DNA of 29,541 nucleotides, taken from Acarospora socialis (lineage: Eukaryota > Ascomycota > Lecanoromycetes > Acarosporales > Acarosporaceae). The DNA lies in contig JAMYGW020000026.1 of the NCBI GenBank assembly GCA_025617375.2, positions 1 through 29,541 of the forward strand. Direction: 5' to 3'. Position 1 is the stretch's first letter. Every line of letters begins with the position of its first letter. The notes beneath the pieces were generated by a model. That model made no database searches. It was not told where the DNA came from and saw only the letters and a program-made list of their open reading frames with translations. The translations under genes were made by a program, and so were the position numbers. Positions 2,600 to 14,652 of the stretch are shown here, in pieces.

Positions 2600-3432
2600 T
2601 ACCGCATTCAGTCCCCACATCGAACAATGGGCCTTGATTCACACCACACCAGCAATATATTCTCACGTTTCGCTGGGATAATTGACGGAGGTCCCATACA
2701 ACCAGGCCGGGCACCGCCATTGATCCCGGGGGTCTCCGAATGGGGTTTGCCAGGAGGTGGCTTCTGAAGCAGTCTTGCCTCAACATTCGTAGCTGATAAC
2801 CCGCTGAGCCGGGACGCATTGTTGGATTTCAGATACCCCGGAATCTCTGGCCGCTGGTGTTGAAACATCTCGCCTTATGTGAGCCTTGCCGCTTGAACAA
2901 ATGATGAATCCTACTCCAACAGACAGGAAGACAACGAAGCAAGCCCTGGAGATTACTCGAGAAGGGGATTGAACCCCGCCACTGTCGGGTCCAGGCATAC
3001 CGTCCGAATAATTACAACTACCAAAAACCGGCCGCCCACAGAGAGACGATAATACTGTCATGGTCGTCGATGTGCATGGAAAGGGGACCTGTCATACGTC
3101 ACGACATAACGTTATTCCATTTTCTCGTCGCAATTTACAATATTGATTGGGCAGCTAAGTGTGTCTGGCAAAAGACCCGAGGAGGGTGCCGCTAACTGAT
3201 GTACCTCGCACTTGTCAAGTACCGTAGTCGGTAATCGTAAATTGATCAGTCAAATTCTGAATTGCACGTGCGAAGAACACATACGATACCTTATGGGCCA
3301 GATGCGGTAATTTAAAAACCGTGGAACAATCGTAGTGCTACAGTAGAGAATCCTATTCAGTGCTAACACTGAATTTACTGAAGTACTTCAGTCTGCTAGC
3401 GTTTTCTTAGCATAATTGTGTCACTCAGTGTA
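2600..3432. other. Intergenic stretch, no gene recognised
   Basis: This is upstream of the transcription factor and could hold its promoter. Short minus-strand frames at 2608-2868 and 2780-3061 match nothing I recognise. A tRNA T-arm-like word at about 2964-2978 was examined and rejected. The 3060-3432 part is AT-richer with no repeat structure seen. Confidence 0.35.
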
Positions 3433-3442
3433 ACTGTAGATG

Positions 3443-3821
3443 TAGGGTGGCCGTCGGGTCAGCCTGACCCTGGCCCGACCCGGCCCGACCCTGGCCCGAC
3501 CCGCGGGTCGGGCCAAAATTTCGAGGCTGACTTGACCCGCGGGTCGGGTCGGGTCAGAACTTCTGACCCGGATTGACCCACGGGTCAATATATATACTAT
3601 ATTTAGCCCTAGAGCCTCATTTTGAGCCTCAATCTGAAGTTTTTGTTAGAAATATGCGTTAGATCTACTATATTTAGTATGTACGGGTCGCCAAGACTGA
3701 CCCGACCCGACCCTGACCCGGCCCGCGGGTCGGGTCAGGGTCAGAAATCTAGGCCTGACTTGACCCGCGGGTCGGGTCGGGTCAGAAATTCTTGGCCCGA
3801 CCCGACCCGACGGCCACCCTA
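3443..3821. mobile_element. hAT-like MITE with GGGTCGGGTC-rich arms
   Basis: The element opens with TAGGGTGGCCGTCGGGTC and closes with the inverted form GACCCGACGGCCACCCTA. Each arm is a dense array of CGGGTC/GACCCG words containing GACCCGCGGGTC palindromes (near 3500, 3535 and 3760), and the arms flank an AT-rich centre. No coding capacity is present. TAGGG-type termini with CGGGTC arrays are typical of non-autonomous hAT elements. The target duplication is ambiguous: GTAGATG occurs directly left of the element and again seven bases past the right terminus, and the inverted similarity extends outward through CTGTAGAT. Confidence 0.65.
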
Positions 3822-4372: not shown

Positions 4373-4497
4373 TACTCGTGCGGCTCGGAATGGCGGTTGT
4401 CACGTGCGGGGATATGGTACGCTTACTTTGCTCTCCCGAAAAGTTAAGCGTACCATATCCCCGCACGTGACGACCGCCATTCCGAGCCGCATGAGTA
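4373..4497. repeat. Near-perfect foldback hairpin, about 57-bp arms
   Basis: The left arm (4373-4430) and right arm (about 4440-4497) are inverted copies with only a few mismatches, separated by about ten bases. The arms contain GCGGCTCGGAATGGCGG at the outside and GGTACGCTTA near the tip. It could form a long hairpin and is probably a foldback MITE or the fused ends of a DNA transposon. The tip core is shared with the smaller hairpin at 10645-10688. Confidence 0.85.
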
Positions 4498-5209
4498 CAT
4501 ATAATACTGGACAATTCGATGAGCCCTTTGTAAAGGTACCTTGTACCTTGTCTATGTTGGTTACTAGGGAAGAAGGTAAGTACGGCCTCCTCCGTACACC
4601 TATGCCCTGACATTGATCCAACTAATATCTTGCCAAGGAAGTATCTATTCGCATATGCTAGGAGACCTGTGGGACGTGGCGTTCAAGTTTGCTCATCGCC
4701 GTAGTACTCGTAGAAGAAGTCAGAGATAGAGCTGTAGACAGATGTGTTGAGTTGTCAAAGATGCTGGATGACAAATCGATGCTGGAGGCGGGGGTGGAAC
4801 GAGTTCTTTGGCAAAAGCATAGAGCCAGGCGTGAGCATTATAAAAAGTCCGGCCCCGGTAAAACCCAATATCTCCTACTCCCGTATAATTGATAAGCACT
4901 CGAAAGGCTGAGCTGATGTTCGCGGCCAGGACCAAAATCGGAGCCAGGACCAATCTCCGAGCCAGTGCCAAAATCGGAGCAAGGGACATATAGTGTGTAT
5001 GTCTGGGGGTCTTTTTGGCGGGGCCATGGCCGGCTAATCGCATAACCCCCTAGGACATCCTAAGCGAGCGAAAACGTCATTTTTATAAGGCCCTAATACG
5101 CCTGAATCATAGGGCATTAGCTAGAATCAGTCCATAGATCAATTAATTAAGTTATTACATGCACCACATGCAAATTGAAGTATCATAATAATATAATTGT
5201 AACTATATA
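4498..5209. other. Intergenic stretch with a short tandem repeat
   Basis: No gene was recognised. The only structure seen is the 18-bp tandem array at 4931-4984. After 5050 the sequence becomes AT-rich up to the edge of the Crypton relic. Confidence 0.35.
4931..4984. repeat. Tandem repeat, three 18-bp units
   Basis: There are three adjacent units of the form ACCAAAATCGGAGCCAGG, the second and third diverged at a few positions. Translated on the minus strand they give a repeating LAPILxLA pattern, but no gene is supported. Confidence 0.75.
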
Positions 5210-5591
5210 CTGCTATCTAGACGTCTTAACAGCCTTAAGGGCCTTGACAAAGGTGCCCAAAGACTTCTCTGACTGCTGTCAAAGCAGCTTCATTTCCTGC
5301 ATGACCCTAAGAAGGACCCCATCATCATCATCCTTCTCCTTCAGAACTGCAACCCTGTTGTGCATCTGATCTATCAGATGCTTTTGTCAACAGTATCATG
5401 TTCTCTTGGCATTACTGTTCCACCAGTAAGCACTGTAGTCAGCATTGAGACTGACAATTGAGAATTCTTCACCAAGACCCTCATGCCACTCCTGCCAGAG
5501 CTCCAAAATCATGTGAACATGTCATGACATTTGATGCTGGAGCACCTGATCTGACAGCAACAACAAGAAAGTGAAGAAGAATGAGGCAGAG

Positions 5592-5756
5592 TGTTATGGG
5601 GCAAGGCCTCTCCACATCGTGACGTCATGCTTACTAAGCATGATTACTAAGCATCCCCACTGCATATATAGCGGTCACACCCCTCTACCCACTTACTTCC
5701 TTAACTATTACTTATATTATAACTTGAATCACATAGCTTAGGTTTATACCCTAACA
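5592..5756. mobile_element. Solo LTR, family C, copy 1
   Basis: A 165-bp unit begins TGTTATGGGGCAAGGCC and ends CCCTAACA, flanked by the 5-bp direct repeat CAGAG (5587-5591 and 5757-5761). It contains a TATATA box. It is inserted within the Crypton relic, between the coiled-coil-like part and the GCR1_C-like part. Its sister copy is at 6287-6453. TGTTA...TAACA ends are common in fungal gypsy-type elements, but without an internal region the superfamily is uncertain. Confidence 0.9.
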
Positions 5757-6286
5757 CAGAGGCAACAACAAGGATGAAGATGAGGGCAACAACAGTGAAG
5801 AAGAGAAAGGAAGCTGCAGAAAGAACAGAAAAGATTGTCACTGCAGAGACTGCCTGCAGCACAGGATCAGTGACCCTAGCATGAGAGACATAGAGAGGGA
5901 TACGGCCCTCCATTAAGTCCTCATGCTAGCCCTCATGACTTGCAGATCCTTGACATTCTGACTGTCTCAGAATTTCACTCTTTCTGCCACAAACTGCTGC
6001 AACATCATCAGTCACTTGACAACAATTGAAAGAACATTGCAGAGCTGCACATCTATGAGCTCTTTCTGCTCATCATTGATCTCAATGACAGTCTGAGCAA
6101 AAGTCTCATACTCAAACAGTACAAAGAGAACTTGCTTTCAGACAGAGTGCTCTGAAAACAGCTTCTGAAGCAGGACAGAGTCCTGCAGAAAGACTGTCTG
6201 CAGCTTATGCAGCAGTCACAGAAATCTCTGTTCTGCAAGATCTGACTTCATCTCTTTACTCATGTCAAGAAACTGACCCATCCACC

Positions 6287-6453
6287 TGTTACGGGTCATG
6301 GCCTCTCCACATCATGACGTCATGCTTACTAAGCATGATTACTAAGCACCTCCGCATATATAGCGGTCATACCCTCCTTTACCCACTTACTTCCTCAACA
6401 ACTTACTTATATATTATATCTTGAATCACATAGCTTAGGTTTACACCCTAACA
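6287..6453. mobile_element. Solo LTR, family C, copy 2
   Basis: This is a 167-bp near-copy of the 5592-5756 LTR, from TGTTACGGGTCATGGCC to CCCTAACA, with its own 5-bp duplication CCACC (6282-6286 and 6454-6458). Different duplications show that the two were independent insertions followed by LTR-LTR recombination. It retains about four CpG sites, unlike the surrounding Crypton relic. Confidence 0.9.
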
Positions 6454-6898
6454 CCACCCATCTACATCCAAAAAGACAAGCAAAAGAAGAAGGTCTGAAG
6501 GGGCAACTTTGACTTGAGGCAAGTAGTAAGTGCCTTGTTGCTGAAAGTCAGTCATGTCATGAATGAACTCCGTGACAGCAACATCAGAGAGACACTCTGC
6601 ATCAAGTCATTGTTTCATCAGCCTGCTCAAGTTTCAACAAATCTATAAGATTAACTAACATTTGTAAAGCAGAAAGACACTTACCTGAGCCTCAGACACC
6701 CCCACCAGCTCCACTATTCTTGCTTCTGATCCATGTGAAGCATGAATCTTCTTTTTGACTGACAGCTCAGCATCAGTGAAGAACTGATTAATTCACTTCA
6801 GCTGAGTGTCATAGAACAGCTTCTTGATGTGGTTCTTGAAGCTGTTCATCAGCATTCACATTGTGTATCAGTCCTCCCTTTGTTTGAATGAAGAAAAG

Positions 6899-7103
6899 TG
6901 TCAGGAGTGCAATACTCACGATGAGAAGTTAAGTCCTCAGTAGTGTTCTATTGGGCTCAATGCAATATAGTATTTAGTATGTAACGAGAAGCCGTGGCTA
7001 TCAATGTTAAGTGTTATGAATGAAGTCTGTTGTTGTTCTACTCTAAGCTATGTGTGGGAGTTATATAAGGCCTAAGCGAATAGGCTAGAGTATAACCATA
7101 ACA
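6899..7103. mobile_element. Solo LTR, family A, short copy
   Basis: A 205-bp unit runs from TGTCAGGAGTGCAATAC to TATAACCATAACA, flanked by AAAAG on both sides (6894-6898 and 7104-7108). It splits the Crypton relic between the NDC10_II-like strand and the HASHGSEAR segment. It matches both ends of the 423-bp LTR at 15447-15869 but lacks the middle of that copy. Confidence 0.88.
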
Positions 7104-8104
7104 AAAAGAACTCATCACTGCAGTGCCATCACCAGAAGAAGTAGACAGCAAGAGCATCAAGGAAACAGACAAGAAAGTTCTTGTTCTGCATTGCAGCACA
7201 GTACTTCATTCTCTCATGCTGATTCATCTTTTCATTGTGGAAGATCAGCACAAGAAAGGGACATGAGGTAGAACCCTCTTCACTGAACTCAACAGTGAAG
7301 AGATTGATGAGTTCAGCCATTCAACAAGACTCATCACAACACAGAAGAAAGTGCCCAAGCAGAAAGTCAATGAGGATGCAGAAGCACTGCTCAGGAAACT
7401 TTGTCAAATCAGATGTTCAAAGCTCTTCACAAATCCATCACATCTTCCCACAGTATAGTCATCAAGAATAGAACTCACAGCTCTATCCTCAAACACAGTT
7501 CTTCTTCTCTTGTTCTTCTATCTGTGAAGCACATTGAGTTGTGCTTTCATTGTGACACTGTGCAGAGTGCTGTTAAGGTTCTGCATCACTGATACCTGTT
7601 TCTTGTAGATATTCATGATGGTGGATATCCAATTCTTTATGTAGTTCTACCCCAGCTCAATGGACCTACCCTTCTCCTCTTTCTCCTTTCTCACTGATTC
7701 CTTCTTCACACCCTCCTTCACCCCATCCTCCTCCTTCTTCTCCTTGCTCTTGCCCTTCCCTCTCTGCTTCTTCATCACCCATTGAGTCAGAATGACTTTC
7801 TTGAGAAAGAGAAGAGTCTTCAGCTCACTGATGAGGTAGTCATCACAGAAGTCTTGTTTCTGGCAGAACTCCTATGCAAATTGTTAGTGACTGCTGCCAA
7901 ACAAAACACAGGGGCCTCATACATGTCAGAGGTGTTTCGGAAGCTGATACACCCTCATCATATTGCGAGGACAGCTGTGAATCCTTGTAGCCAGGGCCTC
8001 CTGTCGCACAGCGAACAGCGTGACGTCGTTGGCCATATTGACGTTGTTGTGGGCGGCGGCGGCGGCCATATTGGCGGCAGCAAGGACGAGGGACGGAGGA
8101 AGAA

Positions 8105-8129
8105 AGGAAGGAAGGAAGGAAGGAAGGAG
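8105..8129. repeat. (GGAA)n microsatellite
   Basis: About six GGAA units lie in a row, next to a GC-rich GGC repeat patch. Confidence 0.9.
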
Positions 8130-8236
8130 ATGTCCAATTGGCCCTGAAAACAAGAAGCAATTAGCCTTAGAACACGAAACGAAAGAGGAATTGGAATTAG
8201 CCCCATAATCCTTATACTTCCCTACCCCGTCTGCCA

Positions 8237-8248
8237 CCCCCCCCCCCC
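8237..8248. repeat. Poly-C run
   Basis: Twelve consecutive C residues. The exact length could be affected by sequencing error. Confidence 0.85.
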
Positions 8249-8926
8249 TGCAAATCAGGATGTCTAACCACCTCTTTCATGTCCAGAGGCCTTGAAATAC
8301 CGTATGTCGTGGGCGGGGTAGGCGTGGACATCTCAATTGACAGGGGTGGGTGGAAATTTCCTCGGTTATTTGGACATGGCCTAGGGCGTTGACATATTAT
8401 GACGTAGTGAAGGGAGTTGTTCAGAAAAGACACTAGGTCCTAAATGATCGCGTTCGCTTAGCCCTGATCCTCGCGAAGAAAGGCATTCATAAGGTACCTG
8501 AAGTGACGGCACGTTCCTTGGGGCGAGGTGGCACTGCTCAGGCCGATCGCCTCGTTTGTTACCTGTACTTTATACACTCGCTGCATGAAACCTTCTTATG
8601 TGCGTGGTGATACATTGCCCAGCCTTGCTCTTCCACCACCACGCTGAATTCTTCTGACTTCTCCTTTTGGGCATCTGATACCATCTGTGTTCGGCCGAAG
8701 CTCAACCCATTACCATCCTCCATGATCCTTCCTGAGTCCTTCGTTGGCCTAGGTAGCACTCCCTGCCCCTATGACTGGTGAGCTCTGTATCCCAAACTAT
8801 CCTCTGATTTCCAGAGCAGCGCAGTCCGTTTTCATGGCTGCCAACGCCAAGTATGATGGGCTAGGAATGCTGACGAGCCTCAGTTGATGAGGTTTGTCCA
8901 GTGCACACCGCAATCAAACGCCACCA

Positions 8927-10245: not shown

Positions 10246-11111
10246 TGCCCTCCCGTCGCCTCCTAAAACCCTCCCTTGCTGTGAATCAACCCGATGTGCT
10301 CACCAAGAACCGAGCTGTCCGAGACAACTTCTTGCCCTTCACTGTGAGTGGCGCTTCTTGGTTGATACCTGAGGTTCTACTCACGTTTGCATGGCAGACC
10401 CCCTCGCGCGGTTGCCCCTTATTACCACTGCCCAGGCCGCCATCTCCAGACGGACCTAGCGTACCGGAGTCATTCGGAGTCTCTGCGTAGGTGTCTGCAA
10501 TGTAGGGCTTAGATCTCCCAAGATACCGCGAGCAGAAGGACTCCGGAGGTCCTCATATTACATCAAAGCGCCGCGTTGTGGAGGCCTTGGCATGCCTGCA
10601 GGTGTACTCGCAGCGCTCGCAATGGCACGAGTACGTAGAAGGACATGGTACGCTTACCTCTTTGGTATACTAAGGTAAAGCGTACCATAATTTTAAGGTC
10701 GATTTGTAGTGTTTTTTGAGCATTTTATATAATATGAGGAATCATGTATATTTCACTGTACATATTGAAATGGGTCCCTGGCCGGCGACCACCCTAGTGA
10801 GCAGTGCAGTTGAGTTGGATTGATCAAAGTACCAGTTACACATAAAGTACAAATTATCTATTATCTAGGTAAGAAACAGTTTGCTGCTTTGAATGAGGCG
10901 CAGTCTAATTACCTACTATCTACGATCGTATACACAAAGCGTAAGTGGTAGTGACTGTCAGTTCGTTGCAGCTCATCTGGTTTTTTTATTTACATTCTTC
11001 AATATTGCAGTTTTTAATTATTTTATTCTCAACCTTAGATCATCATCTCTATTCTCTCCATCTCAAAATCTCTTCTAATTTTTTGACAACTTCTTTTCAA
11101 TCATTTTGTAT
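10246..11111. other. Intergenic stretch, no gene recognised
   Basis: It contains the hairpin at 10645-10688. A CACCCTA terminus-like word at 10790 recalls the end of the MITE at 3443-3821. No coding region was recognised; the 10890-11100 part is AT-rich. Confidence 0.35.
10645..10688. repeat. Hairpin sharing its core with the 4.4-kb foldback
   Basis: ATGGTACGCTTACCT (10645-10659) is followed by its near-perfect inverse ending GCGTACCAT (10673-10688), with a 13-base loop. The same ATGGTACGCTTA/TAAGCGTACCAT core forms the tip of the 4373-4497 hairpin, so the two are likely related elements. Confidence 0.8.
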
Positions 11112-11116
11112 ACATA

Positions 11117-11290
11117 TGTTGGAATTGGAACGTTTCTATTGCTTGATATTAGGTGTCTTAATTATCTAGGAGACTAGAATACACAAAGGATAACTTTGTG
11201 TGTGATGACTAAGCGATATCACGTGACACGGAAGATTCCGACACCAGGCCGGATAGGGTTGAACTCCTAAAGAGCCTCCTAATTCCAACA
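11117..11290. mobile_element. Solo LTR, family B, complete
   Basis: A 174-bp unit with mirrored ends TGTTGGAATT and AATTCCAACA is flanked by the 5-bp direct repeat ACATA (11112-11116 and 11291-11295). The mirrored ends are like those of copia/Ty1-type LTRs. A second, 5'-truncated copy lies at 14652-14818. No internal retrotransposon sequence is present. Confidence 0.92.
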
Positions 11291-11295
11291 ACATA

Positions 11296-11891
11296 TGTTA
11301 CAAATTCTTGGGTAAAATTGTCAAATCATTCATTTATAAGTGATCTTCTTTCTGAAAAGAATTACCTATCCTAGTCAATAACGTTACTTTCATTGCTAGT
11401 TGTTGATGTTTTTCTTCGTTTAGAATGATGCCCAGATTTAATTTGTTTCATTCCTGGATTCTTCAGCCTCTTCTGTATTAAGATTTCACTATCTGAATTC
11501 ACATGCCAATACTCAACCCATCTTCTAAGCAACTTCTCTTCCTCTGGGTTATCCAGCTGATGATAACTAGAATGATGTTTTCATCCACCACATTCAAGGT
11601 CCTCGTCCTCTGGCCGTCTGCAGAAGCGGAGACAACCACAAGTTCTCCATACACCAGTTTTGATGTGGCAAGGGCCTTTGGGAACTGATGTATTTCCCTT
11701 TGTTCTTGATAACATCATCTGAGATAGTATTGGAAGTTGCTCGAAGGCAGTCTGGCTTAAGAACCAAGGGAGTCAGCCATACTATCTACTTCTACTTTTA
11801 GACTGTTCTGTACGCGCATTCAACTCCGTTTCTCCAGCGCTTGCTGACAAATATGTGACTCGCGGGAGTACTCGTAGGAGCGCCGTGGGTA
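11296..11891. other. Stretch without a supported gene
   Basis: A minus-strand frame at about 11380-11590 stays open for roughly 70 codons and contains NPEEEKLLRRWVEYWHVNSD and a basic KRRKTS patch, but no family was recognised. It sits directly between the solo LTR and the Tc1 element and may be a remnant of an older gene. Confidence 0.25.
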
Positions 11892-13211
11892 AGGTACAAA
11901 GTGGGGGACAAAAGTCTTCGGTCACCCCACTAAATTAGGCGACACAACGAGTATCCATAACCCTATGAATTTATATGTAACTTAGACACAACTAGTAGAA
12001 TTGAGTCAATTGTTATATATGTTATAATTTAGACCCTAGACTACGTGACTGCATGCTTTTTGAATTAATTAGAAGTCAGTGGCCAATCCATGTCGCTTCC
12101 GAACCTGCTGTAGCCTCATAGGCATACTATCCACATGTTTCCTCCAATCCTTTGGTTCTAATCGGTCCCATTCCTCCTTAATTGCCTGTATGAGGTCCGG
12201 ATGCGTTCGAGGAGGGTGTCGTCAACGGTAAATACGCTGTTTTAGGAGTCGCCATACGTTCTCAATAAGGGATAAGTCGGGGGAGCTTGGCGGCCAGTCG
12301 AAAAGGCGAAGACCCAGCTCTTTCTTCCACTTTTGAAGACTCTTTGCATGCCCTGCCCCATGGATTGGGGCATTATCCTCCTGAAATAGCCCGTCGACAT
12401 CCCATCCAAGCTGTCCTGCAAATGCAGGCCCCACAACAGCCTCTAGGATCTGTGTCTTGTAGTCCTCCATTGTAATTCCTCCCCTCTTCCCATGCCCTTC
12501 CAAAAACACCAAAGGAGACTTCCAATTATATCCAATGGCACCCCATATCGGTATGGAGGTCGAATTCGACTTGAATACTGACTCACAGCATGCTGGATGG
12601 TAGCGTTCCCCCTTTGTACGAATCACCCACTTAGTAGTGCCTCTTGACGTGTCAAAAGAACACTCATCTGACCACATTATCTTCCTCCAAAACTCCGGTT
12701 CGACTCTGCCGTATACCCTAGCAAAATGCCTTCGAATTCGGCGAGTTTCGGCCGAAAGGAATGGCTTCCGGCATGCCTTGCACTTATGATAACCCTCCTT
12801 TTCACATGCTCGCTTTATAGTCTTCCCAGACACCTCCAATCCAGCCAATTGACCCAATTCCTTCCACTTTAGTCTTCGACCTTCGTATGAGGCCGTCGCT
12901 ATTCGAATTAGGTGTCGTCGGTCTCGTTTGTGGAGTTTTCGTGGCCGTCCAGTTCGTAAGGAATGTGGTCGTCGATCCGAGGATTTTCGCATCCAACACT
13001 GAATAGTGCTGTACGGGACACCAAAACGACGTGCAGCACCTCTAATTGATAGGACATCTTCTTCTATTAAGGCCTTAATTCTAGCCTTTGTAGGGGTTAT
13101 CCATTCGCCTGTTTCATGGTTTCTTTCGGGCTCAAAATTCATGATTGTATGGTGGTTTACTAATAAAAAGCTACGAAGTGACCGAAGACTTTTGTCCCCC
13201 ACTTTGTACCT
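11892..13211 (-). mobile_element. Complete Tc1/mariner element, 1320 bp
   Basis: Perfect 34-bp terminal inverted repeats beginning AGGTACAAAGTGGGGGAC occupy 11892-11925 and 13178-13211. A TA dinucleotide lies immediately outside both ends (11890-11891 and 13212-13213), the standard Tc1/mariner target duplication. One transposase gene fills most of the interior on the minus strand. The identical TIRs suggest recent insertion. Confidence 0.95.
12069..13142 (-). pseudogene. Tc1/mariner transposase with one in-frame TGA
   Basis: This would encode a cut-and-paste transposase acting on the flanking TIRs. ATG at 13140-13142 is chosen because upstream codons run into the right TIR. The N-terminal helix-turn-helix is visible in IRGAARRFGVPYSTIQCW. 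The catalytic residues are the Asp of MWSDECSF, the Asp of FQEDNAPIHG, and the Glu of PDLSLIENVW; I count 37 residues between the second Asp and the Glu. A TGA at 12222-12224 interrupts codon 307. The same frame then continues for 51 codons, through HPPRTHPDLIQAIKEEWDRL and DSMPMRLQQVRKRHG, to a TAA at 12069-12071, which is the expected family C-terminus. The family has Arg residues around the stop, so CGA to TGA is likely. All three catalytic residues precede the stop. Confidence 0.9.
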
Positions 13212-13213
13212 TA

Positions 13214-13377
13214 GGTAATTTACCGTCAAAGCTACAGCAATGCTGTACGAGGATTTAGTATTTAGTCATGTATCGTACCATAAGCGAGGGCAACCACCAA
13301 ATTTCCTGCATTTCGCGATCAAACTCCATCAAATTACTATACAAATTGCTAGGAAATCAGATAGATTTAGATTATAA
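13214..13377. other. Short spacer between two transposase genes
   Basis: This is AT-rich sequence just downstream of the second transposase. Its own left terminus might lie here, but no matching inverted repeat could be found because the other end is lost. Confidence 0.3.
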
Positions 13378-14652
13378 CTAGCCATGAAACTCATTGCCAC
13401 CCTCGCAGTCAATAACTTGCTGAATGCGACAAGGAAGTGCATCAATCCATGCATTTATGACCTCCACAGGGAGGTTTGCCCACTCCTCACGCCACATTGC
13501 GTCTGTTTCGGGGATTCTAGTAGGAATATGTCTGTCATTCTCCACTTAGTAGGCATAAGACTTGGGGAATCTAGCAGAAAATTACCTGCGTCTCCCCACT
13601 TGTCGTTGCACCCATGCCCAGGCATGCTCAATGGCATTAAGGTCAGGTGAGCATGGCGGCCATAGCAGTTTTTGAATTTCATAGGCCTCAAAGACCTCCT
13701 GATTCCAAGACTTATTATGGGCAGGTGCATTATCTTCCACGACCAGAACAGGACGTCCACTCTCCTTCAATTTGGCTGCAAAAGGCAGTAGTAATGGGTG
13801 GAGAACACACTCGCGATGTCGGAACCAATCGATGCCTCCTCTGCTTCTATCGCCACGCTTCTTGAGATCAGGGTGAAATCCAGGAAATTTCCCACGTCGT
13901 TTTCTGCCTTTCTCATCCAAATCCAGCTGTTTTAGGCCTTGTTCTGCGAGATATTTAGCCCTAAGGCGGGGAAGATCTGCGGCATTCTCCTGCTCCAAAG
14001 CAGCCTCTGCATCTCGCTTTTCTTGCTGTAAATTGGAGAGTGTGATTAGTTATGCACACAAATTGAGTGTAAAACTAACCTCTGTCTCTGTGTGATAAAC
14101 ATGACATGGACCTTTTGCATCATAGACAAAGCAACCCCAGAATTGCAGCTCTGAGTATTTAGTCTGACGTCTGCGCACAACATCTGGAGAATACAGCTCC
14201 TTTTTGGCTGTCTTTCTCCAAAGTTTGTGATATCCTCGCCGTTCTCCCACTTTCACAGCGGTTTCGTCCGTGAAAATCACGCTTCACCAGTCAAAATCTC
14301 GGTGTTTTAGGGCAAATTCCAGTCTAGTTTCCTTCTGTTTTTCGGAGAGCGCAGGCTTAAGAGGAGAATCTCTCCGTGCATAGCCCCTGTCATAGAGCAA
14401 TTGCTGCAGAGTGGAAGGAGAAATCTGGAGATTTAGCTGTTTTAGTACATTATTTACCTGCCATTCTCGAGAATCCCCATTCTCCACCACTTTCTCCGCA
14501 ATTTTGTCCTTTTCCTGTTCAGAAAGTTTCTTGGGCCGCCCACTTCGAGGTTTGCTGGCGTAATTCTCTAGTTCTTGCAGTGGTAAATCTGCCTTAGAAG
14601 CCTTGTCGCGAGCAGCTTTGGCAATTCGACAAACAGTAGGCGAAATGGACAT
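13378..14652 (-). pseudogene. Second Tc1-type transposase (DD34E), two introns, N-terminally truncated
   Basis: Three exons are read on the minus strand. Exon 1 (14652-14080) has a GRPKKLSEQEKDKIAEKV stretch like the DNA-binding/linker region, then a TGA at 14284-14286 directly before VIFTDETAVKVGERRG, the first catalytic Asp. A 54-bp intron (14026-14079, GTTAGT...CAG) joins in frame to exon 2, which carries VVEDNAPAHNK and LLWPPCSPDLNAIEHAWAW; 34 residues separate the second Asp from the Glu. A 69-bp intron (13517-13585) joins to exon 3, ending in VINAWIDALPCRIQQVI and CEGGNEFHG before TAG at 13378-13380. The stop probably replaces an Arg or other residue after the Trp. The start lacks the usual first helix-turn-helix segment because the gene meets an LTR fragment exactly at its ATG. 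It is unrelated in sequence to the 11.9-13.2-kb element. Confidence 0.85.

Follow-up and report, generated by a model that had tools for sequence, protein, structure and literature searches.

The DNA analyzed here, a 29,541-nucleotide stretch of Acarospora socialis contig JAMYGW020000026.1 (the window), carries a dead Crypton-type gene from which CpG dinucleotides have almost disappeared. The gene lies on the reverse strand within an element copy at 4985..8397, delimited by homology to contig C6 (C6:1919894-1922907) and, at 4996-5487, also to contig C22. Whole-genome family searches located three reverse-strand domain remnants in it: an NDC10_II domain at 7111..7500 (PF16787, E 1.2e-11), a second NDC10_II piece at 6120..6269 (PF16787, E 1.3e-4), which alone falls below the cut-off and reaches it together with its neighbours, and a GCR1_C domain at 5345..5533 (PF12550, E 7.5e-10). 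The in-frame stops in these remnants are TGA in 7 of 8 cases (the eighth being TAG), 2 of 2 and 3 of 3, respectively, and in 11 of 19 cases in the NDC10_II pieces of the C6 copy. At E <= 1, NDC10_II was found elsewhere in the C6 copy only, and a GCR1_C fragment was found on C22. We take domains of the NDC10/GCR1_C type to link the element to Cryptons, which are tyrosine-recombinase elements; the domain matches in a broken gene, with stops that are mostly TGA, bear out the initial annotation of a dead Crypton gene. A Pfam search with four pieces of the gene returned nothing convincing, the domains emerging from the whole-genome family searches, and 7101-7930 had no match in a phage collection.

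Three inserts break the homology to the C6 copy, and all three retain their CpG. Insert 1 (5592..5757, 3 CpG), initially annotated as a putative long terminal repeat (LTR), and insert 2 (6287..6454, 4 CpG) belong to the same family and are absent from the C6 copy; insert 3 (6884..7079, 4 CpG) is a different repeat, with a relative in a CpG-free tract of another genomic stretch, L021. Because they keep their CpG and interrupt the C6 homology, the inserts probably arrived after the gene had been mutated, or else they escaped recognition. Between short repeat pairs in the window and in L021 or L031, which are too diverged to carry much weight, CpC had changed at 5 of 10 sites for insert 3 and at 1 of 5 and 3 of 7 sites for two other pairs.

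The depleted tract spans 5226..7937 on the reverse strand, over the dead gene. Outside the inserts, our dinucleotide counts give two CpG in 2,182 bp, at 5903 and 6571, where 82.6 would be expected at the observed/expected ratio (O/E) of 0.81 in the rest of the window (Poisson P(<=2) ~10^-32). There is none in 7079-7937, and the first CpG beyond the tract is at 7938; this recount agrees with the initial one. In 500-bp steps, the CpG count drops from ~20 in adjoining sequence to 0-5 at ~5250-7950 and then recovers immediately. The two ends of the element, 4985..5225 and 7938..8397, retain CpG and appear to have escaped in the window copy, and their C6 counterparts are mutated. In a 2,158-bp version of the tract, O/E is 1.53 for CpA, 1.57 for TpG and 0.32 for TpA; with CpA and TpG raised and TpA low, the tract is not the product of repeat-induced point mutation (RIP) of the CpA type, as was initially noted. 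CpC (O/E 0.74) and GpG (O/E 0.56) are only partially reduced in the same version.

The C6 copy, 77-82% identical to the window copy depending on the piece, is mutated much further. Its 2,151-bp core lacks CpG, CpC and GpG altogether but has 186 CpA and 147 CpT, and the whole 3,014-bp element holds a single CpG, 10 bp from its right end. The 2-kb flanks have CpG O/E of 0.72 and 0.89, and the first CpG beyond the element lies 42 bp away on the left and 100 bp away on the right. In this comparison of two copies of one element, the mutated tract coincides with the repeat on C6 and stops inside the element in the window. At L002:2420-2620, in the C6 copy, an 18-bp tandem array takes the place of a short GGC-rich stretch of the window, this repeat having expanded in the mutated copy.

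The third copy, on C22, still holds 19 CpG in 385 bp, and at ten of these the window and C6 copies both carry TG or CA, supporting the initial proposal of C-to-T loss at CpG. The window and C6 gene bodies disagree, TG against CA or CA against TG, at 39 places, and CpG was therefore lost independently after the copies split; they differ by 28 transversions in 2,701 aligned bp. These data bear on whether the gene was simply CpG-poor when it inserted, with no decay in place, as might be argued from an intact long interspersed nuclear element (LINE) of this genome whose open reading frame has 6 CpG in 3,984 bp. The C22 copy and the disagreements, together with the CpG retained at the ends of the window element, make this very improbable; we reject it for the Crypton on the first two counts, though it is true of the LINE.

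To resolve sequence context, we counted changes from the window to C6, scoring each CpG on both strands. At 8097-8397 these affect 36 of 58 CpC, 7 of 18 CpG strand-sites, 1 of 34 CpA and 2 of 36 CpT, and from 5042 to 5225 they affect 4 of 8 CpG strand-sites, 4 of 14 CpC, 1 of 19 CpA and none of 21 CpT. Within the gene body, T stands in C6 at 123 of 408 window CpA and 143 of 379 window CpT, far above the element ends. Part of this excess reflects the earlier CpG loss in the window copy, and part must be slower change at CpA and CpT.

The LINE family, whose copies are 95-100% identical in the reverse transcriptase (RT) region (n=20), offered a second measure of context. In 19 copies compared with one intact reference copy, C-to-T changes occurred at 167 of 774 CpC, 14 of 74 CpG, 27 of 2,508 CpA and 10 of 1,735 CpT. 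Tallied once per distinct site, a count less affected by common descent of the copies, the figures are 37 of 41, 4 of 4, 10 of 133 and 7 of 92, and in the reverse direction CpC changed at 1 of 591. CpA, the preferred target in RIP, is thus little used here. Relative to transversions per site (nine in 14,163 sites), C-to-T change is raised ~380x at CpC, 17x at CpA and 9x at CpT. By 5' base, the CpG changes fall at TCG in 2 of 19, ACG in 5 of 18 and GCG in 7 of 37, few sites for comparison with the TpCpG-type hypermutation of Pucciniomycotina.

To see how far the depletion extends, we sampled 17 arbitrary 10-kb stretches at hand-picked positions. One, L030 (contig C16), is AT-rich yet CpC-rich; we take its Cox1-like reading to mean that it is mitochondrial and probably outside the reach of any mutator, and dropped it, leaving 16 nuclear stretches. 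Cut into 320 windows of 500 bp, these have CpG O/E below 0.1 in 90, or 28%, a rough figure given the hand-picked positions. Three stretches (L015, L017 and L025; GC 25-28%) contain no CpG and only 1, 2 and 4 CpC plus GpG per 10 kb, or 7 in 30 kb, and L015 includes a single run of 9,802 bases free of CpG, CpC and GpG. Such a run, together with the Poisson probability for the window tract, leaves a negligible chance to an ordinary base-composition or codon effect, in favour of which we found nothing. CpG is likewise absent from 18 of 20 copies of a putative Gypsy-like RT family, the top of 151 score-ranked matches (435 candidates), with 0-15 CpC per copy. This end state recurs at many places in the genome.

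These samples revise three earlier claims. The loss had been described as confined to the gene, and the tract does cover the dead gene; the element, however, is longer than the tract, and other families and regions of the genome are CpG-depleted too. A genome-wide AT-rich compartment that is equally CpG-poor, the very observation initially named as one that would refute the proposal, contradicts the suggestion of a process aimed at one repeat family and rules out family-specific CpG decay. Nor is the loss restricted to CpG, CpC and GpG being wholly gone from the C6 core and almost wholly from the AT-rich blocks. As to what the blocks contain, two direct repeats in L025 (368-729 and 6235-6596, 84% alike) flank an RT match at 3233-3709, an arrangement that looks like a decayed LTR retrotransposon. 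A stop-masked Pfam search of L015, covering two of six frames in its first half, found nothing. At L021:7981-9712, two open frames, putatively ankyrin-like, run through or out of a CpG-free tract; they may belong to a host gene that was reached by leakage of the process.

We modelled the AT-rich blocks by a simulation that started from normal host DNA, took its CpA and CpT rates from the LINE, set the CpG rate equal to that of CpC, and ran until CpC reached 0.1 per 1000. Simulated and observed GC were.286 and.269, and several dinucleotides per 1000 were approximately reproduced: CpA 75.7 and 75.7, CpG 0 and 0.0, TpA 90.0 and 87.8, GpC 19.8 and 20.3, ApC 47.8 and 47.8, and ApT 126 and 123. Simulations that exhausted CpA, either by itself or together with CpG, were rejected, as they gave 177-240 TpA per 1000 against 88 observed. 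Pure exhaustion of CpC and CpG was also rejected: it left GC too high (0.351 against 0.269), and a slow CpA/CpT component is therefore needed. To estimate the relative rate of CpG and CpC (kCG/kCC), we fitted 12 partly mutated tracts, namely the window tract, one tract of L021 and ten Gypsy-like copies, chosen among the 20 because they still had CpC. With an assumed host-DNA starting composition and one run at each of the ratios 1, 2, 3, 4, 5, 6 and 8, the best value was 4 (log-likelihood -14.3, against -118.9 at ratio 1), which predicts 3.0 CpG in the window tract, itself part of the fit, where two are seen.

On this evidence, we consider it likely that a C-to-T process directed at repeats acts across the genome, as a defence resembling RIP, and that the window tract represents its early stage. 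The preference would be set by the 3' neighbour, in the order CpG > CpC >> CpA, CpT, at relative rates of roughly 4 for CpG (from the 12-tract fit), 1 for CpC, and 0.045 for CpA and 0.024 for CpT (from the LINE). Both strands of repeated DNA would be targeted; CpG would go first, CpC and GpG would next be almost exhausted, and most CpA and CpT would be spared while GC drops from ~52% to ~27%. The window copy would have halted after the loss of CpG from its gene body, and the C6 copy, continuing over nearly its full length, would represent a late stage. As in RIP, C-to-T transitions are found on both strands of repeated elements. The data show the contexts, the direction of change, the limits of the C6 tract and the recurrence of its end state; that the mutator recognizes repeats, would act in the sexual cycle and removes CpG before CpC in one kinetic series is what we infer. 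The order is also suggested by 459 windows, none of which combines a CpC/GpG O/E below 0.1 with a CpG O/E of at least 0.1, the converse holding in 26.

Several observations weigh against a single RIP-like process. At least five of those 26 windows belong to a LINE copy (L027:1-2013) or to the mitochondrial L030, which weakens the evidence of these 459 windows for CpG loss before CpC. In the LINE, CpG changes no faster than CpC (14/74 against 167/774), though with 2 CpG in the reference piece this is a weak test, and the C6 end at 8097-8397 retains 14 of 58 CpC and 1 of 9 CpG, nearer to equal rates. RIP usually hits both copies of a duplication; here the gene body is mutated in both copies, but the ends only in C6. 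RIP also leaves same-strand runs of hits per event, and the LINE hits show no such runs (80 strand switches against 77.4 +/- 5.6 when shuffled), although several rounds of mutation would mix the strands as well. No fewer than 40 LINE copies persist at 97-100% identity; many are only partly mutated, and those read retain much of their CpC, which is odd for strong RIP. Lastly, the simulation underestimates TpT (116 against 135 observed) and overestimates CpT (67 against 58.9), a fit that improves when CpA and CpT are given equal rates.

One process can fit the data, but the lack of faster CpG change in the LINE and the C6 end makes it possible that there were two: the window tract would stem from CpG decay, for example through methylation, and the AT-rich blocks from a mutator directed at CpC that acted later. 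The near absence of CpG from a window tract with only partially lowered CpC agrees with this, as do the LINE copies, CpG-poor at the start and then losing CpC. The fit of one rate set, with kCG/kCC near 4, to all 12 tracts speaks for a single process, as does the fact that CpC is reduced in the window tract too. We regard two processes as rather unlikely, and as overlapping the RIP-like reading, of which they could also be a sub-case.

Which enzymes might be responsible was addressed by searching for the C5-methylase family, which has three loci, on C2, C3 and C8, all with normal CpG (O/E 0.86-0.95). The C3 locus matches PDB 9bap/9baq (E 1e-191), which we take to be Neurospora DIM-2, and the C8 locus matches PDB 7r76 (E 2e-67), listed as Rad8 and presumably Cryptococcus DNMT5. 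The C2 locus encodes a C5-methylase catalytic domain, its apparent stop falling inside an intron (GTGAGT...AAAG) recognized by eye; we assume from its motifs that it is of the RID/Masc1 type, and the label RID-like rests on these motifs. A gene of the kind associated with RIP thus appears to be present, and this RID-like gene may do the mutating.

The DIM-2-like and DNMT5-like genes lend some support to a passive alternative that needs no directed mutator, in which transposon heterochromatin is methylated at CpG and CpC by these enzymes and its 5-methylcytosine is gradually deaminated. The strand-mixed hits in the LINE are in line with it, and so are the graded ages of its copies, whose hits correlate with other changes (r 0.57). 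Methylated CpG in mammals, however, mutates at ~30x the transversion rate, against ~380x for CpC in the LINE (on nine transversions), and we prefer a directed mutator for this reason. In addition, the window and C6 copies have accumulated only their 28 transversions, yet the C6 core has no CpC. Passive decay is in our judgement unlikely, and simple methylation decay, as first proposed, is disfavoured. Decay of methylated CpG alone would account neither for the CpC changes of the LINE nor for the emptied C6 core.

A main survey of context is reportedly that of Clutterbuck (2011). Among cytosine mutators in general, APOBEC3G acts in a CC context and deaminates the second C; here the C preceding C changes, and CpG changes as well. 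The RID-dependent RIP of N. crassa resembles the present process in its C-to-T changes on both strands of repeats, its AT-rich relics and the presence of a RID-like gene, and differs in that CpG and CpC here far exceed CpA and CpT and TpA is not enriched. Its order of preference is CpA>CpT>CpG>CpC, and T. reesei, with a shifted preference that includes CpG, differs from our case in having CpA about equal to CpG and CpC least (PMC5496416). The nearest match in context is the RIP-like hypermutation of the basidiomycete Rhizoctonia solani AG8, where CpC is the commonest context; the mean distances between C/T changes in its Table 2 are 214 bp for CpC, 370 for CpG, 422 for CpA and 491 for CpT (PMC4014442). 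Its authors stress a CpG bias, with genes and repeats changed alike, and the data are heterozygous SNPs (single-nucleotide polymorphisms) uncorrected for dinucleotide abundance; exhaustion of CpG and CpC is not described in the accessible part of that report (PMC4014442). Signatures at CpG, CpA and CpT occur in ten fungi, and the transposons of Tuber melanosporum and basidiomycetes share the CpG-to-TpG decay, but with CpG alone or together with CpA, the term CpC being absent from the main text (PMC4352252). Methylation induced premeiotically (MIP) in Ascobolus also involves a RID-family gene, Masc1, and senses duplications before karyogamy, but it methylates without mutating (PMC2432034).

A screen published in 2025 and covering 1,239 fungal genomes reports a common CpA preference among RIP-like defences, which the preference in this genome almost fully reverses (PMC12543289, as far as that text is accessible). 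Our literature search, through titles, the openings of abstracts and accessible text that included parts of PMC7882544, PMC12542154, PMC5555474, PMC8959702 and PMC7493409, found neither such a CpC/CpG preference in repeats nor any case of repeats from which CpC and CpG had both been emptied; a report may exist elsewhere, for example in Clutterbuck 2011. The published RIP cut-offs are TpA/ApT >= 0.89 and (CpA+TpG)/(ApC+GpT) <= 1.03 (PMC3828140; the first also PMC2621366). In the three AT-rich stretches TpA/ApT is 0.67-0.75, without the raised TpA of RIP; these stretches are CpG-free and nearly CpC-free, yet none of their 60 windows passes both cut-offs, and 2 of 60 pass TpA/ApT alone. Index-based surveys would therefore tend to miss the process. 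As a natural specificity variant, the genome could help to identify the residue, in RID, DIM-2 or a partner, by which the base on the 3' side is read.

It also offers a transposon apparently adapted to the mutator. The intact LINE reading frame (L076:181-4164) encodes 1,327 amino acids with endonuclease, RT and RNase H domains, at a CpG O/E of 0.05. Its arginine codons are AGA (41), AGG (2) and CGN (4), and GCG, ACG, CCG and TCG codons are absent. Early action of the mutator would give such a composition, with selection presumably keeping the frame open. Forty copies were scored (58 candidates), with 97-100% identity over 1 kb, and 13 contigs each carry them in a single region: C1 2.65-2.80M, C2 1.47-1.50M, C3 569-587k, C4 1.99-2.00M and C5 1.54-1.59M, with one further region on each of C6-C12 and C14. 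Given one region per contig, the clusters are probably centromeres. A fuller picture, which we put forward tentatively and as somewhat short of an even chance, is that a RIP of inverted specificity, reading 3' G/C rather than A/T, erases CpG and CpC over multiple kilobases, and that a LINE clustered at these presumed centromeres has evolved a nearly CpG-free open frame and is still multiplying.

Other features of the window lie outside the element. A milder CpG dip occurs at ~11001-11750, with 6-8 CpG per 500 bp, O/E 0.32-0.60 and GC 33-39%. Pieces of a Tc1/mariner-type transposase (HTH_Tnp_Tc3_2 and DDE_3) at 12219-13764 contain stops and mostly retain their CpG. An inverted repeat at 4373-4497 has 53-nt arms, 96% complementary, around a 19-nt spacer, and a GC-rich unit is repeated at 3490-3795 around CCCGCGGGTCGGGTC.

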